A stretch of DNA of 49,657 nt from a virus. Made by a program: the position numbers and the translations under genes. Each line of letters starts with the position of its first letter. Position 1 is the first letter of the stretch. The DNA lies in the IMG/VR virus record IMGVR_UViG_3300017746_000021, positions 1 to 49,657 of that record; one strand, 5' to 3'. Shown here in pieces: positions 1,906 through 22,850 of the stretch. Under the pieces are notes generated by a model. It searched no databases. It was not told the DNA's origin and saw nothing but the letters and a program-made list of their open reading frames with translations.

Positions 1906-4338
1906 TCAATTAACAAACAGCTTGCCTCCACGACAGGCTATTTTCACGTCTCTGACGTCTGGATTCTCCAGAACATGATCTGCTAGTAGTGTTTCTATCT
2001 CTTTTTGTATGATTCTGTTGATAGCTCTTGCTCCAAACTTGTGATGTTCATTCCGGTTCACCACCCATCTGGCCACAGATGGTGTGTAGCTCAACGTGAT
2101 GTCATGACTTTTCATACGATGTATCAACTGCGCCAGACCTAATCTGGTTATACTGATGAGCTGTTGTTCCTCTAGCTTGTTGAACATCACCACTTCATCC
2201 AGTCTGTTCACAAACTCCGGACGTAAGGTGTTATCTATCTCTTTGTTCACGTTATACTCTGCATCATTAGATGAACTACCGAAACCAACATTCGAGTTCT
2301 TGGTAAGTTTATCAGCGCCTATGTTGGATGTTAGTATTATGATGGTGTTTTTAAAGTTTATATGTCTGCCATGTGCATCAGTTATACTACCCTCGTCCAG
2401 CACTTGTAACAATATGTTGAGTACATCTGGGTGAGCCTTTTCAATCTCGTCGAATAGCACGATACTGTACGGGTTTCTTCTCACTCGTTCAGTTAAATCT
2501 CCACCAGTCTCGTAACCCACGTAACCAGGTGGAGAACCTATCAGCTTACTGACACTATGTTGCTCCATCATCTCAGACATGTCAACACGTATTATCTTAT
2601 CTGCATCGTCAAACAGAACTTCCGCTATACATTTGGTTATATATGTTTTACCAACCCCAGTAGGACCTACAAACAAGAAGCTTCCAATTGGTCTCTTCGG
2701 ATTGTTCAATCCTGTCTTGGATCTTTTTATGGTGGTTGTTATTACGTCTATAGCTTGTTGCTGACCTATCACATTTTTCTCTAGAAAGGATGTGAGTTTG
2801 CGTATTCTCAAATGATCACCCCCCTTTATGTTGACAACTGGTATCTTAGTTATATTGGATATCACCATGCTGATGTGTTCCTCATTCATCTCACGTGTTA
2901 TCTCATGTTGTTTCATGTACTGTGAGTGTCGTCTATCTATTTTAGATAACCACTTTGTCTCTTCTTGTCGGTACTCTGAAGCGATGTCGTATTGCTTTCT
3001 CTCTACAAACGCTTTCATCTGCTCATTAGCCATCTCGGCGTTTTCAAGATATACAGGATTCACTTTATATTTTCGATACACATCAATTTTTACAGATGAG
3101 CATGCTTCATCAAGTACATCAATTGCCTTATCTGGGAAGTTTCTGTTAGTTATGTACCTGTCACATAAGGATATGATTTTATCAATACACTCATCACTTA
3201 TAGTCAGATTGTGATAAGCTTCAAAACTGGACTTGATACCTAATAAAATTTGCCGAGTCTCTAAAATACTGGGTTCAGACACTCTGATAGGTTGAAACCT
3301 ACGTTCTAAAGCACCATCAGTCTCTACATGCTTTCTGTACTCATCTAATGTTGTTGCTCCTATCATGTTTATCTCACCACGTGCTAGTGACGGTTTCATT
3401 ATGTTACTAGCATCCATAGCACCATCAGCATTACCGGCTCCGACCATCATATGTAATTCATCCAGGAACAATATTATGTTATTAGATTCTGATACATGCT
3501 CTATAACCTCAGTTAATCTCTCTTCGAATTGTCCTCGATATTTAGTACCTGCTAACATCAATGGTAAATCCAAACTCAATATAGTCTTCTTTTGTAGTTC
3601 ATACGGAACATCACCGGCGATAATCATGTTTGCTAACCCCTCTACAATTGCTGTCTTACCAACTCCTGGTTCTCCTACTATCACAGGGTTGTTTTTCGAT
3701 TTACGTAGCAATGTCTGTATGACATGTTCAATATCACCATCTCTACCAATCACAGTTGTTAGTTTACCTTCCCTAGACATCTGTGTCAAGTCCTTAGTGT
3801 ATTTAGTTATAGCTGACCCTGCTGTAGGTTTGCTTGTGGTTTTGCTTGTGGTTTTGTTTGTAGATTTATGTTCTGATGTACCTGTCTTATATCTCTGATC
3901 ATCACTTGATTCCTCGATATACTGTCTAATTGTTGCTATGTTAAAATCATATCTCTTATAAATTAAAGACGCGATACCGGATTCCTTCTTGAATACACCT
4001 ATCAATAGATGTATTAAACCAACTAATACAACACCGTTGCTTACCGCCTCTGCAGCTGCAGAAGTTATTATTTCTTTTATCTTTGGAGAGAATGAAGGAT
4101 TACCATCTCCTGTACCGTCATTAACATCTAGTTGGGTGCGTATTAACATTGACAATTCACGTGTGTCAATGTTGTGATCTGAGAATAATTTATTAATCTC
4201 TTTACACTTTCTATATTTCAGTAGACTATACATCACGTGATGTGATGTGATGAAGTTGTGGTTGTACTTCTGAGCATGTCGCTCAGCACGCTCAACAACA
4301 TATCTACAATCAGGTGATAAACTATATTGATAACCCAT
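1906..4338 (-). CDS. ClpA/ClpC-type AAA+ protein unfoldase
   Basis: 810 residues with the full Hsp100 layout: an N domain (about 1-145) of two Clp-N repeats, a Ser/Thr/Lys linker, a first AAA+ module with Walker A GEPGVGKTA, a short middle region, and a second module with GPTGVGKTY and sensor motifs. The middle region carries a UVR-like helix (EQMKAFVERKQYDIASEY) and lacks the long ClpB coiled coil, so ClpC/ClpA type fits better than ClpB. Between the sensor I region and the PEFVNRLDE motif sits a VGF tripeptide, at the position of the ClpP-docking loop (IGF/L). It could therefore feed substrates to host ClpP; no clpP gene is in the window. A late promoter lies 7 nt before the start. Confidence 0.88.
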   Translation of the reverse strand: MGYQYSLSPDCRYVVERAERHAQKYNHNFITSHHVMYSLLKYRKCKEINKLFSDHNIDTRELSMLIRTQLDVNDGTGDGNPSFSPKIKEIITSAAAEAVSNGVVLVGLIHLLIGVFKKESGIASLIYKRYDFNIATIRQYIEESSDDQRYKTGTSEHKSTNKTTSKTTSKPTAGSAITKYTKDLTQMSREGKLTTVIGRDGDIEHVIQTLLRKSKNNPVIVGEPGVGKTAIVEGLANMIIAGDVPYELQKKTILSLDLPLMLAGTKYRGQFEERLTEVIEHVSESNNIILFLDELHMMVGAGNADGAMDASNIMKPSLARGEINMIGATTLDEYRKHVETDGALERRFQPIRVSEPSILETRQILLGIKSSFEAYHNLTISDECIDKIISLCDRYITNRNFPDKAIDVLDEACSSVKIDVYRKYKVNPVYLENAEMANEQMKAFVERKQYDIASEYRQEETKWLSKIDRRHSQYMKQHEITREMNEEHISMVISNITKIPVVNIKGGDHLRIRKLTSFLEKNVIGQQQAIDVITTTIKRSKTGLNNPKRPIGSFLFVGPTGVGKTYITKCIAEVLFDDADKIIRVDMSEMMEQHSVSKLIGSPPGYVGYETGGDLTERVRRNPYSIVLFDEIEKAHPDVLNILLQVLDEGSITDAHGRHINFKNTIIILTSNIGADKLTKNSNVGFGSSSNDAEYNVNKEIDNTLRPEFVNRLDEVVMFNKLEEQQLISITRLGLAQLIHRMKSHDITLSYTPSVARWVVNRNEHHKFGARAINRIIQKEIETLLADHVLENPDVRDVKIACRGGKLFVN

Positions 4339-20559: not shown

Positions 20560-21393
20560 TCAATTAATAGATTTAATTGTGGAGTGCTGTAAGTTGTGGT
20601 GCACCCATTCTGTACTCACCGGGTGGTACGTGGGATTGAGTTTACCATAACCAGCTGGTGTCACAACCACTATATCTAATATAGATTCAACCTGACTAGC
20701 AGGTATTGATACTATTAATTCATTTTCTGACACAATACTATAATCTATTTTATAGCCCATGAAGTTTGTAAATTGACCTGGGTTAGGTGATTGAACTTCA
20801 CTCATCGGATATGCATCATTGTTACAGCTCAAATATACTGATGTTGTATAATTTAAGCTGTAACCTGTTAATAATATGTTGTAGCTGTCGTCAGGTTTTA
20901 TGTTCAAGTGACTTACATAATTAATAGTAGGTACACCCTTCACAACTACATACTCTGTCAATTTGTTGTGTGTGTATTTCAAACCACCTGCATATGATAC
21001 AGACGGTGTGGGTGTAGGCGTGGGAGTAGGTGCAGGTGTACTGCTAGGGGTTGGAGATGGAGTTATTGATATTACCGGTTCGTAGTCACCATTACATGCA
21101 GACAATGTAACAACACCAGTGTAGTCACCACTCTCAATCGACACCCAACCAGTTTGTGGTAGTGTTTCTGCTCTTGAAGGGTTGGCATAATATAATGTAT
21201 ATGGACTGTTGTTCTTGGCTATTCGCCAGCTCCCACCAACAAAATTAGTGATACGGTCACTGTACGTTATTTTATAACCAGTTACAGATGAGTATTTGAC
21301 TCCAATGTCAGAGTGGTGTTCAAGATCATACGTACCATCAAGAAAATCTTCATCAAGTGTTGAACCAGATAAGCATATTTGTCTAGTTATCAT
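20560..21393 (-). CDS. Predicted virion protein with Pro/Thr linker, 277 aa
   Basis: Two beta-rich domains (about 1-105 and 135-277) are joined by a striking Pro-Thr-Ser linker at residues 111-130 made of TP repeats. Such linkers occur in phage surface and decoration proteins. The second domain contains NILLTGYSLNYTTSVYLSC and a VVTPAGYGKLNP ending that resembles an IPT/Ig-like fold. It overlaps gp15 by 4 bp, so it is co-translated with a tail-completion protein. No specific family recognised. Confidence 0.6.
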   Translation of the reverse strand: MITRQICLSGSTLDEDFLDGTYDLEHHSDIGVKYSSVTGYKITYSDRITNFVGGSWRIAKNNSPYTLYYANPSRAETLPQTGWVSIESGDYTGVVTLSACNGDYEPVISITPSPTPSSTPAPTPTPTPTPSVSYAGGLKYTHNKLTEYVVVKGVPTINYVSHLNIKPDDSYNILLTGYSLNYTTSVYLSCNNDAYPMSEVQSPNPGQFTNFMGYKIDYSIVSENELIVSIPASQVESILDIVVVTPAGYGKLNPTYHPVSTEWVHHNLQHSTIKSIN

Positions 21394-22073
21394 ATCTCGT
21401 CAATATCAATCACCGGAGTGAAGTTGCTTGTCACTTTGTAAATTTGACCAGATGGGTCAGATTGATCCTTAAACAACCAACCTTTGATAGTGAAACCAGC
21501 GTCTGCTGACACTCGATATTGCGAACTACCGGACAAGTCGTCTGGGTATGACATGTTTATGTTACCATCCCACATCACCTGTGATCGAATCTCTTGCTTC
21601 TTTTGTAATACACCATCCGGTATAGTCCATGATATAACAACGTATGGGTTTGTGTATGGTATGAAATTGCTCAGTATCTGATCCATGTCGGATTGATACC
21701 TGGTGAGAATCGACATACTCACACCTATATCGATCGGAACCGGAGGCTTCAAGAAGTCTGTGTTGTTAGTTATCTGCTGACCAGCAAATTCATCCACACG
21801 AGGGTGATGTGAACCTGCTAATTTGTTGAACACTCTTGATGGATCTCTATTCACACTGGTAATAGTTACAGCTATCACCGGTAGTGTTATGTGTTTAGCT
21901 TTGTTGGTCAGGTCGTGTATGACTCTCTGTTTTGGAGCATATACATATCTCACATTGATCTTCTTGTCCACACTTCTGTCACGATTGTGCCTAGATATGA
22001 CCACATCATCAAAAGCACTGATGAATTGCGTGACAAGATCCTTGATCTCAAAATAAAATGGTTGTTTCTTCAC
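21390..22073 (-). CDS. gp15: Tail sheath stabiliser / completion protein gp15-like
   Basis: 227 residues. Pattern similarity to T4 gp15 includes KPPVPIDIGVSMSILTRYQSDMDQIL and NFIPYTNPYVVI, against the T4 region with ELSIFTRYEDDMFQI and LPYFQPH. An ITLPVIAVTI strand and a C-terminal FTIKGWLFK also fit. gp15 caps the completed tail and joins it to the head. Start is GTG 22073, 7 nt after a CATAAATA late promoter. Confidence 0.7.
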   Translation of the reverse strand: MKKQPFYFEIKDLVTQFISAFDDVVISRHNRDRSVDKKINVRYVYAPKQRVIHDLTNKAKHITLPVIAVTITSVNRDPSRVFNKLAGSHHPRVDEFAGQQITNNTDFLKPPVPIDIGVSMSILTRYQSDMDQILSNFIPYTNPYVVISWTIPDGVLQKKQEIRSQVMWDGNINMSYPDDLSGSSQYRVSADAGFTIKGWLFKDQSDPSGQIYKVTSNFTPVIDIDEI

Positions 22074-22080
22074 TTACTAT

Positions 22081-22088
22081 TATTTATG
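22081..22088 (-). promoter_or_regulatory. T4-type late promoter (CATAAATA)
   Basis: One mismatch from consensus; 7 nt upstream of the GTG start of the gp15-like gene. Confidence 0.6.
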
Positions 22089-22098
22089 TAGTTGATTA

Positions 22099-22107
22099 TG
22101 ATATAAT
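22099..22107 (+). promoter_or_regulatory. Extended -10 promoter (TGnTATAAT)
   Basis: TGATATAAT on the plus strand, a full extended -10 element, directed into the gene-free 22.1-22.5 kb region. There is no good -35 box, as expected for extended -10 promoters. Predicted start of transcription is about 22113-22115. Confidence 0.5.
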
Positions 22108-22113
22108 AGATAT

Positions 22114-22512
22114 TAAAATATAAACGATGCACAAGTGTGGGATAACGCTATAACATCACCTATCAACATTTTCGGTACACGAGTGTGAGTAGTAGTTAAC
22201 TCGATGATAGGATGTGACTTGGCAGAGCACACTGCTAGAAGGACAACGCTAAATCAAACCCTGTTAGTGACAGGACAAAAACGGCAGGTTAAAAACTGCA
22301 TCGCACCGAACTGCAGCGCAAGCTGGTATATTTTAGCGGTTGTTATCAACCGGAGTTTATAGGTCAGGATTCTCCATAAAGTTAAAATCTCATATGAGTG
22401 GTCACTATGTTAAGATACACATGTTATACTGGACAACAATCTAGACACCAATACGCTCTGTTAATTCACGGGTGTATTGTGTCAAGAGACCAAGTGGCCT
22501 GGAGTACAATCA
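22114..22512 (+). ncRNA. Candidate structured non-coding RNA, about 400 nt
   Basis: This 427-nt interval (22091-22517) has no credible gene but many helices. Long-range CCTATCA/TGATAGG (22159-22165/22205-22211) is extended by ACAT/ATGT and encloses CGAGT/ACTCG. Hairpins follow: GCAG/CTGC (22222/22232), CCTGT/ACAGG (22260/22270), GCAG/CTGC (22284/22296), CAGC-GCAA-GCTG with a GNRA loop (22314-22325), CGGTTG-TTAT-CAACCG (22337-22352), and TTTAT..GG/CCATAAA (22356/22374). A 14-bp bulged helix (22444-22458/22470-22483) is framed by TGGTC/GACCA (22399/22488). The GCAA loop and the extended -10 element favour the plus strand. It matches no tRNA, tmRNA, RNase P or group I intron hallmark I know. The 3' end is uncertain. 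Confidence 0.5.
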
Positions 22513-22517
22513 ATATA

Positions 22518-22850
22518 TTATTCGTACTCAATAACCAAACGGTCATTAAAGATGGTACTGGAAGTTTTGTACTTCTTAAGTAATTTATCAGCTAGCAGGT
22601 CATCGATCATTAGAGAGTCTAGTGAATAGTCAAATATTATCTCTTTTGAGTCTTTCTTGTCGATCACATCGTATGGGTAATATATCTCATATGTTCTCAA
22701 CGCTCCTTTGTGAGTTTTTATGGTGAATGTAATCACATGATCTTTTGTGTTGAACAACAGCAGTTTGCCTCTTCTCAGCAGTTTGCGTCTATTCAATGTT
22801 ATCTTGATCGATCGCTGTAGTAGGTGTTTGCATGCATCTTCGAGTATCAT
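22518..22850 (-). CDS. Hypothetical basic protein, 110 aa
   Basis: Begins MILEDACKHLLQRSIKITL, followed by a Lys/Arg-rich stretch (NRRKLLRRGKLLLF) and beta-strand patterns. It overlaps the upstream gene by 4 bp (ATGA). A GAGTAC/GTACTC inverted repeat spans its stop codon (about 22503-22528). No family recognised. Confidence 0.55.
   Translation of the reverse strand: MILEDACKHLLQRSIKITLNRRKLLRRGKLLLFNTKDHVITFTIKTHKGALRTYEIYYPYDVIDKKDSKEIIFDYSLDSLMIDDLLADKLLKKYKTSSTIFNDRLVIEYE

Follow-up and report, generated by a model that had tools for sequence, protein, structure and literature searches.

A probable noncoding RNA gene with a conserved, pseudoknotted fold beside the gp15-like gene of uncultured T4-like phages

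What does a phage genome keep in several hundred bases between two genes when no gene can be recognised there? The question was raised by the virus record IMGVR_UViG_3300017746_000021, whose complete 49,657 bases were analysed and are called the window below. The record represents a T4-like phage by gene content, which includes genes for a gp23-type major capsid protein, a gp20-like portal and a tail sheath, together with SbcCD-like and helicase genes. The portal and capsid proteins share only about 29–35% identity with their best counterparts in cultured phages, and the group is therefore uncultured within the collections compared, while psbA was not found in any record searched, giving no sign of typical cyanophages. 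The gap lies at 22074–22517 (444 bases), between the gp15-like gene and a small gene at 22518–22850. A preliminary description, made from the sequence alone, had called it a gene-free island, rich in helices and possibly encoding a new structured phage RNA. The first of these claims held, as the flanking genes end at 22073 and 22518, no conserved open reading frame is present in the gap, and the short reading frames inside it are not common to homologues. The reading favoured here, at a probability of roughly 0.65, sees in the gap a noncoding RNA gene that stands on its own and belongs to an uncultured T4-like phage lineage. The features of the locus are as follows:

21390–22073, minus strand: gp15-like tail sheath stabilizer gene (PHROG 227, E = 1.5e-21), syntenic neighbour of the RNA
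22081–22087, minus strand: ATAAATA, a T4-type late-promoter-like motif for the divergent gp15 gene, which also precedes many window genes
22092–22119, plus strand: sigma-70-type promoter, with -35 TTGATT at 22092–22097, a 16-nt spacer and -10 TAAAAT at 22114–22119
about 22126–22512, plus strand: structured noncoding RNA of about 390 nt (33-row alignment, covariation and strand test)
22518–22850, minus strand: small convergent gene with no known function, syntenic with the RNA in most copies

The RNA lies on the plus strand, in antisense orientation to the gp15-like gene and upstream of it; its 5' end is inferred from the promoter and helix P1, and the final conserved element is taken to mark its 3' end.

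Relatives of the gp15 protein were gathered from IMG/VR as the starting set for the homologue search, and an nhmmer search with the island as query detected copies in nine of these loci, with E values of 1e-44 to 1e-86 (two of the nine come from near-identical contigs). Motif and pattern scans enlarged the family to about 36–40 distinct IMG/VR contigs, fragments included. Two loose pattern scans returned mostly chance loci, with L186 and L298 being real, and L111 and L116 were dropped as homologues since they carry the motif only. The full copies occupy a single locus throughout, upstream of gp15 and on the opposite strand to it, and one copy per record was present in 12 of the 12 longer records. 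The far neighbour is the homologue of the 22518–22850 gene in most copies, and extra genes occur on either side in some, including three (L086, L101 and L113) in which they intervene between the RNA and gp15. Two close relatives harbor large extra genes between the RNA and its usual neighbour, at 4060–5835 in L087 and 1461–4367 in L104. In related phages lacking the RNA (L017, L019, L043, L050 and L071), just 24–30 bases separate gp15 from the preceding gene; L008 was rejected as a further RNA-minus relative, its absence probably resulting from the contig ending upstream. On the gp15 tree, the RNA presence label needs 3 changes versus 27 in shuffles, and the starred branches force two. The whole lineage, with its compact genomes, appears to have retained the RNA at this single position, and it seems to have been lost only rarely.

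Outside this lineage no relative was recovered. The core covariance model gave chance-level matches only in the RNA-minus relatives and in five cultured T4-like phages, among them T4 (no credible match, best E 0.25); nucleotide searches of 50,697 phages and 72,556 plasmids yielded weak short matches or none; and scanning 84,980 prokaryote genomes for the motif returned two matches, both without the remainder of the RNA. No description of this RNA was found in the literature covered, which leaves out most subscription papers. The family is very likely new, none of the collections searched having yielded a relative; the novelty concerns the family itself, as large phage-borne RNAs of unknown function are already a known phenomenon. 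One homologue, L094 (IMGVR_UViG_2788499918_000003), carries a record number that looks unlike the metagenome series (3300...) and may offer a lead to a host.

Whether the structure exceeds chance was assessed from folding energy and from covariation. Single-sequence folding of the window against shuffles gave z = -2.42 for the plus and -0.29 for the minus strand, and the single-sequence energies of 17 homologues separated the strands weakly (mean z -2.05 versus -1.41), so that folding energy alone would not convince. The covariation is decisive. RNAalifold on nine sequences identified 31 pairs with double changes, and in an alignment of 33 sequences, tested in the manner of R-scape with a purpose-written procedure against a phylogeny-preserving null of 40 simulated alignments, 11 pairs exceed all 40 simulations. 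Of the 25 best among the 77,815 pairs tested, 23 are canonical, and several join distant positions. An explicit model was drawn up with 93 pairs in 20 helices; it is 95.1% canonical, 60 of its pairs show double changes and its compensatory cells number 412, compared with 83.8%, 37 and 109, respectively, in the shuffled control, whereas sliding the partners by 1–3 columns left 36–39% paired and 28–48 compensatory cells. Part of the structure was itself read from the alignment in which the pairs were counted. At the helix level nearly all varying helices are significant against the phylogenetic null, with P2 borderline. Of the five pseudoknot or long-range contacts, a, b, c and e covary and d is invariant. 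The window and L002 are imperfectly aligned locally at P7, so that P7 and pseudoknot b are undercounted. Whole-helix replacements were also observed: in L115, L117 and L121 the sequence of P4 is replaced and its shape kept (UCG-GUACA-CGA to CCU-GGGCA-AGG and similar), and in L117 and L121 P3 is swapped from CCUAUC/GAUAGG to CCAUGU/ACAUGG.

The strand can be read from the same alignment, in which G-U cells outnumber A-C cells on the plus strand by 326 to 36, and the functional strand is therefore the plus strand. This bears on a rival reading, in which the interval belongs to the minus-strand operon as a 3' UTR or as a spacer between its genes; in its favour, the genes on both sides are read from the minus strand. 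Against it stand the G-U excess on the plus strand, the near-zero minus-strand z score in the window and a conserved plus-strand promoter, and we regard it as very unlikely. A real structured plus-strand RNA is very likely, and its elements, all on the plus strand, are as follows:

22126–22157: P1 (22126–29/22154–57), enclosing P2; compensatory changes in 4 of 4 P1 pairs
22134–38/22145–49: P2, inside P1; mostly invariant
22159–22211: P3 (22159–64/22206–11), enclosing P4 and P5; helix-level p<=0.0025
22166–69/22183–86 plus 22172–74/22180–82: P4, loop GUACA; helix-level p<=0.0025
22187–90/22199–22202: P5; helix-level p<=0.0025
22194–22219: pseudoknot a, P5 loop 22194–97 with 22216–19; 97.7% paired, 3 of 4 pairs covary
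22220–22237: P6 hairpin (22220–25/22232–37); stem GGCAG/CUGCU near-invariant
22242–22462: pseudoknot e, 22242–45 with the P14 apical loop 22459–62; covariation
22260–22274: P7 hairpin CCUG/CAGG; covariation
22266–70 with 22402–06: pseudoknot b, from the P7 loop; covariation
22284–22299: P8 hairpin; 98.5% paired, 3 of 4 pairs covary
22311–22367: pseudoknot c, 22311–13 with 22365–67; one pair above all 40 null simulations
22314–22325: P9 hairpin, GCAA loop in the window; 4 of 4 pairs covary
22330–22388: P10 (22330–37/22381–88), 8 bp, enclosing P11 and P12; 99.6% paired, 7 of 8 covary
22338–41/22348–51: P11, within P10
22352–55/22372–75: P12, within P10
22356–22380: pseudoknot d, UUUA 22356–59 with UAAA 22377–80, H-type with P12; invariant in 33 sequences
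22389–22398: P13 hairpin CUC/GAG
22421–22443: R1, with a CUGGA motif, preceding P14; changes in concert with R2
22444–22483: P14, bulged 3' hairpin with conserved core 22450–58/22469–78; 96.6% paired
22491–22513: R2, a second copy with a CUGGA motif, following P14; within-molecule identity test

Several of these helices had been proposed beforehand. The long-range helix at 22159/22205 held as P3 (double changes in five of six pairs), the core of the 14-bp bulged helix at 22444/22470 held as P14, and the 6-bp hairpin matches P6. The GNRA hairpin, which we take to be CAGC-GCAA-GCTG at 22314–25, held as the covarying hairpin P9, with a GNRA loop in only some copies. Pseudoknot e reads GACA/UGUU in some copies and GAUC/GAUC in others and is 93.7% paired as helix 9, and one pair of pseudoknot c is UA in 21 sequences and CG in 12. 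Pseudoknot d is possible and no more, resting on complementarity alone, as its invariance precludes support from covariation. Long unpaired segments, namely GCUAAAUUAAAC, AAAACGG, GCACCGAAC and AGGU, are conserved as well. The pairing of the roughly 390-nt transcript into a multi-pseudoknotted body is shown by covariation; that this body is compact is inferred. Separately, column 22327 covaries with the 22453–22475 pair (C.G-C / U.A-U), which might represent a base triple or an alternative pairing.

Transcription of the RNA is inferred from promoter sequence, without expression data. A TTGA-type -35 and a TATAAT-like -10 line up at the same columns of the alignment in almost every homologue, and P1 begins about 7 bases past the -10 in the window. 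The preliminary description had instead placed an extended -10 element, TGATATAAT, at 22099–22107, which failed as a conserved promoter, being out of register with TTGATT/TAAAAT. Judging from the promoter type, host sigma-70 polymerase would make the RNA before the late genes. No intrinsic terminator was found near the RNA 3' end, which is therefore uncertain and may need processing. Based on longest-ORF tiling, the next plus-strand gene candidate is about 11 kb off, at about 33.3 kb, and the RNA is therefore not a 5' leader; a riboswitch or other cis leader was rejected on the same ground. The proposed new structured phage noncoding RNA is supported, as it has homologues, shows compensatory changes and an asymmetry between the strands, and is preceded by a promoter that is conserved.

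The plus-strand promoter sits a few bases from the divergent ATAAATA of gp15, the corresponding ATTTAT being conserved in many but not all homologues. This proximity, together with the unvarying placement of the RNA at a single locus in antisense to the late operon, lends some weight to a second rival, a local regulator in which rightward transcription, or antisense pairing to read-through late mRNA, times the gp15 operon. However, simple antisense or collision needs no conserved fold with so many compensatory cells, and extra genes separate the RNA from gp15 in the three copies named above; this rival is considered unlikely. An RNA with its own promoter acting in trans, rather than a cis element, is likely, with the caveat that the strict fidelity to one locus could also be compatible with a local role.

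Comparison with known RNAs revealed no established relative. Rfam 15 covariance models gave no family match at the gathering threshold in the window or in 18 homologous loci, and at E<=10 the window, L120 and L115 gave nothing credible and chance matches at most, under a setting that recovered all eight T4 tRNAs of a control stretch. No tRNA genes were found in the window or in seven long relatives, and no tmRNA was found in the window by ARAGORN, with the Rfam tmRNA models also silent. A group I or group II intron was rejected, as Rfam gave no match and the RNA sits between genes that run on the other strand. Melnitz, a marine T4-like phage, encodes a tmRNA in two pieces (PMC9004378), likewise a structured RNA borne by marine T4-like phages, and tmRNAs also contain pseudoknots. 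The T4 rnaC and rnaD are comparable as small stable RNAs annotated in a phage, but they measure 119–139 nt, adjoin the tRNA cluster and show no sequence relationship. ICP1 produces an abundant noncoding transcript of about 800 nt with unknown role (PMC7567579), similarly from an ORF-less gap in a phage without tRNAs, although it is about twice as long, lies beside the lysis cluster and has no sequence match to the present RNA in the phage collection searched.

The preliminary description had offered GOLLD or ROOL, or something new, and the latter branch is supported. Cryo-EM has revealed nanocages for GOLLD and ROOL and a dimer for OLE, and the first two RNAs often lie near tRNA islands, as a tendency and not strictly (PMC12286853). 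The present RNA resembles GOLLD and ROOL in being phage-encoded, ornate, pseudoknotted and of unknown function, and differs in lacking an Rfam match and a tRNA island, in lying within a structural gene cluster and in its clearly smaller size, as many GOLLD RNAs exceed 800 nt (PMC12286853). OLE, about 600 nt and found in Gram-positive extremophiles or anaerobes (PMC9723947), is likewise an intricate bacterial noncoding RNA with highly conserved segments, but no Rfam OLE match was obtained here and the RNA occurs in 0 of the 84,980 prokaryote genomes by the motif scan. A third rival, RNA-only assembly or scaffolding as in these three, would involve high copy number and inferred homo-oligomers; it is possible but not likely, and has for it the shared ornateness and a P4 loop, GUACA, containing the self-complementary GUAC in most copies. 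Against it are the lack of any sequence or structure match to GOLLD, ROOL or OLE, the missing tRNA island, the smaller size, and a P4 loop that is not palindromic in several copies (L115, L117 and L121).

The two elements R1 and R2 flank hairpin P14 near the 3' end of the RNA. Their identity averages 14.3 of 23 positions within a molecule versus 11.0 across molecules, compared with 12.5 for R1 with R1 across molecules, and none of 20,000 permutations reached the within-molecule value. They change in the same, not a complementary, way (U-U, C-C and A-A at one position). The simplest reading, possible and inferred with no binding partner identified, is that they are two copies of one site for a coevolving partner. 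Both conserved elements contain GGA; a CsrA-sponge RNA would be expected to have many GGA loops and a CsrA partner, and a CsrA gene was not detected in the phage relatives searched. The alternative is a ribozyme or self-processing RNA, in which R1 and R2 flanking P14 would be cleavage or processing sites. Dense pseudoknotting, invariant unpaired core segments, similar coevolving elements either side of P14 and the missing terminator speak for it; no Rfam ribozyme family matched, a search of relatives for a RegB-type nuclease, run without a positive control, came up empty, and there are no cleavage data. As partners, CsrA and RegB thus gained no support. Processing at R1 and R2 remains possible, while the ribozyme reading as a whole appears unlikely.

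For the favoured stand-alone RNA gene, host RNA polymerase with a sigma-70-type factor would transcribe rightward, diverging from gp15 and opposing the late operon, and the RNA would appear before or apart from late transcription. The multi-pseudoknotted transcript would then most probably be a stable RNA or RNP that works in trans by binding a host or phage partner, for which the conserved unpaired segments and the concerted R1 and R2 are candidate contact sites by inference. Whether the mechanism is partner binding or decoy, as opposed to catalysis or RNA-only assembly, is inferred and could as easily fall either way. When an RNA fold is under constraint as strong as this, the molecule has usually turned out to be a catalyst, a receptor, a scaffold or the core of an RNP. 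A bolder reading, a new pseudoknotted phage RNA class that is itself catalytic or an RNA-only structure-builder during infection, unrelated in sequence or fold to GOLLD, ROOL, OLE or any known ribozyme, is a real possibility but clearly less likely than not. The covariation model supplies directly testable pairs and a minimal construct.

Two further observations concern the window at large. ATAAATA occurs within about 4–17 bases of many gene starts, such as 698 and 1183 on the plus strand and 4338, 10843, 12601, 18705, 20526, 22073, 32240 and 40762 on the minus strand, and late mRNAs may therefore be leaderless or nearly so. In addition, a Clp-like AAA protein (PHROG 4871, ATP-dependent protease) is encoded at 1906–4338 on the minus strand and shares the late region with the capsid gene.
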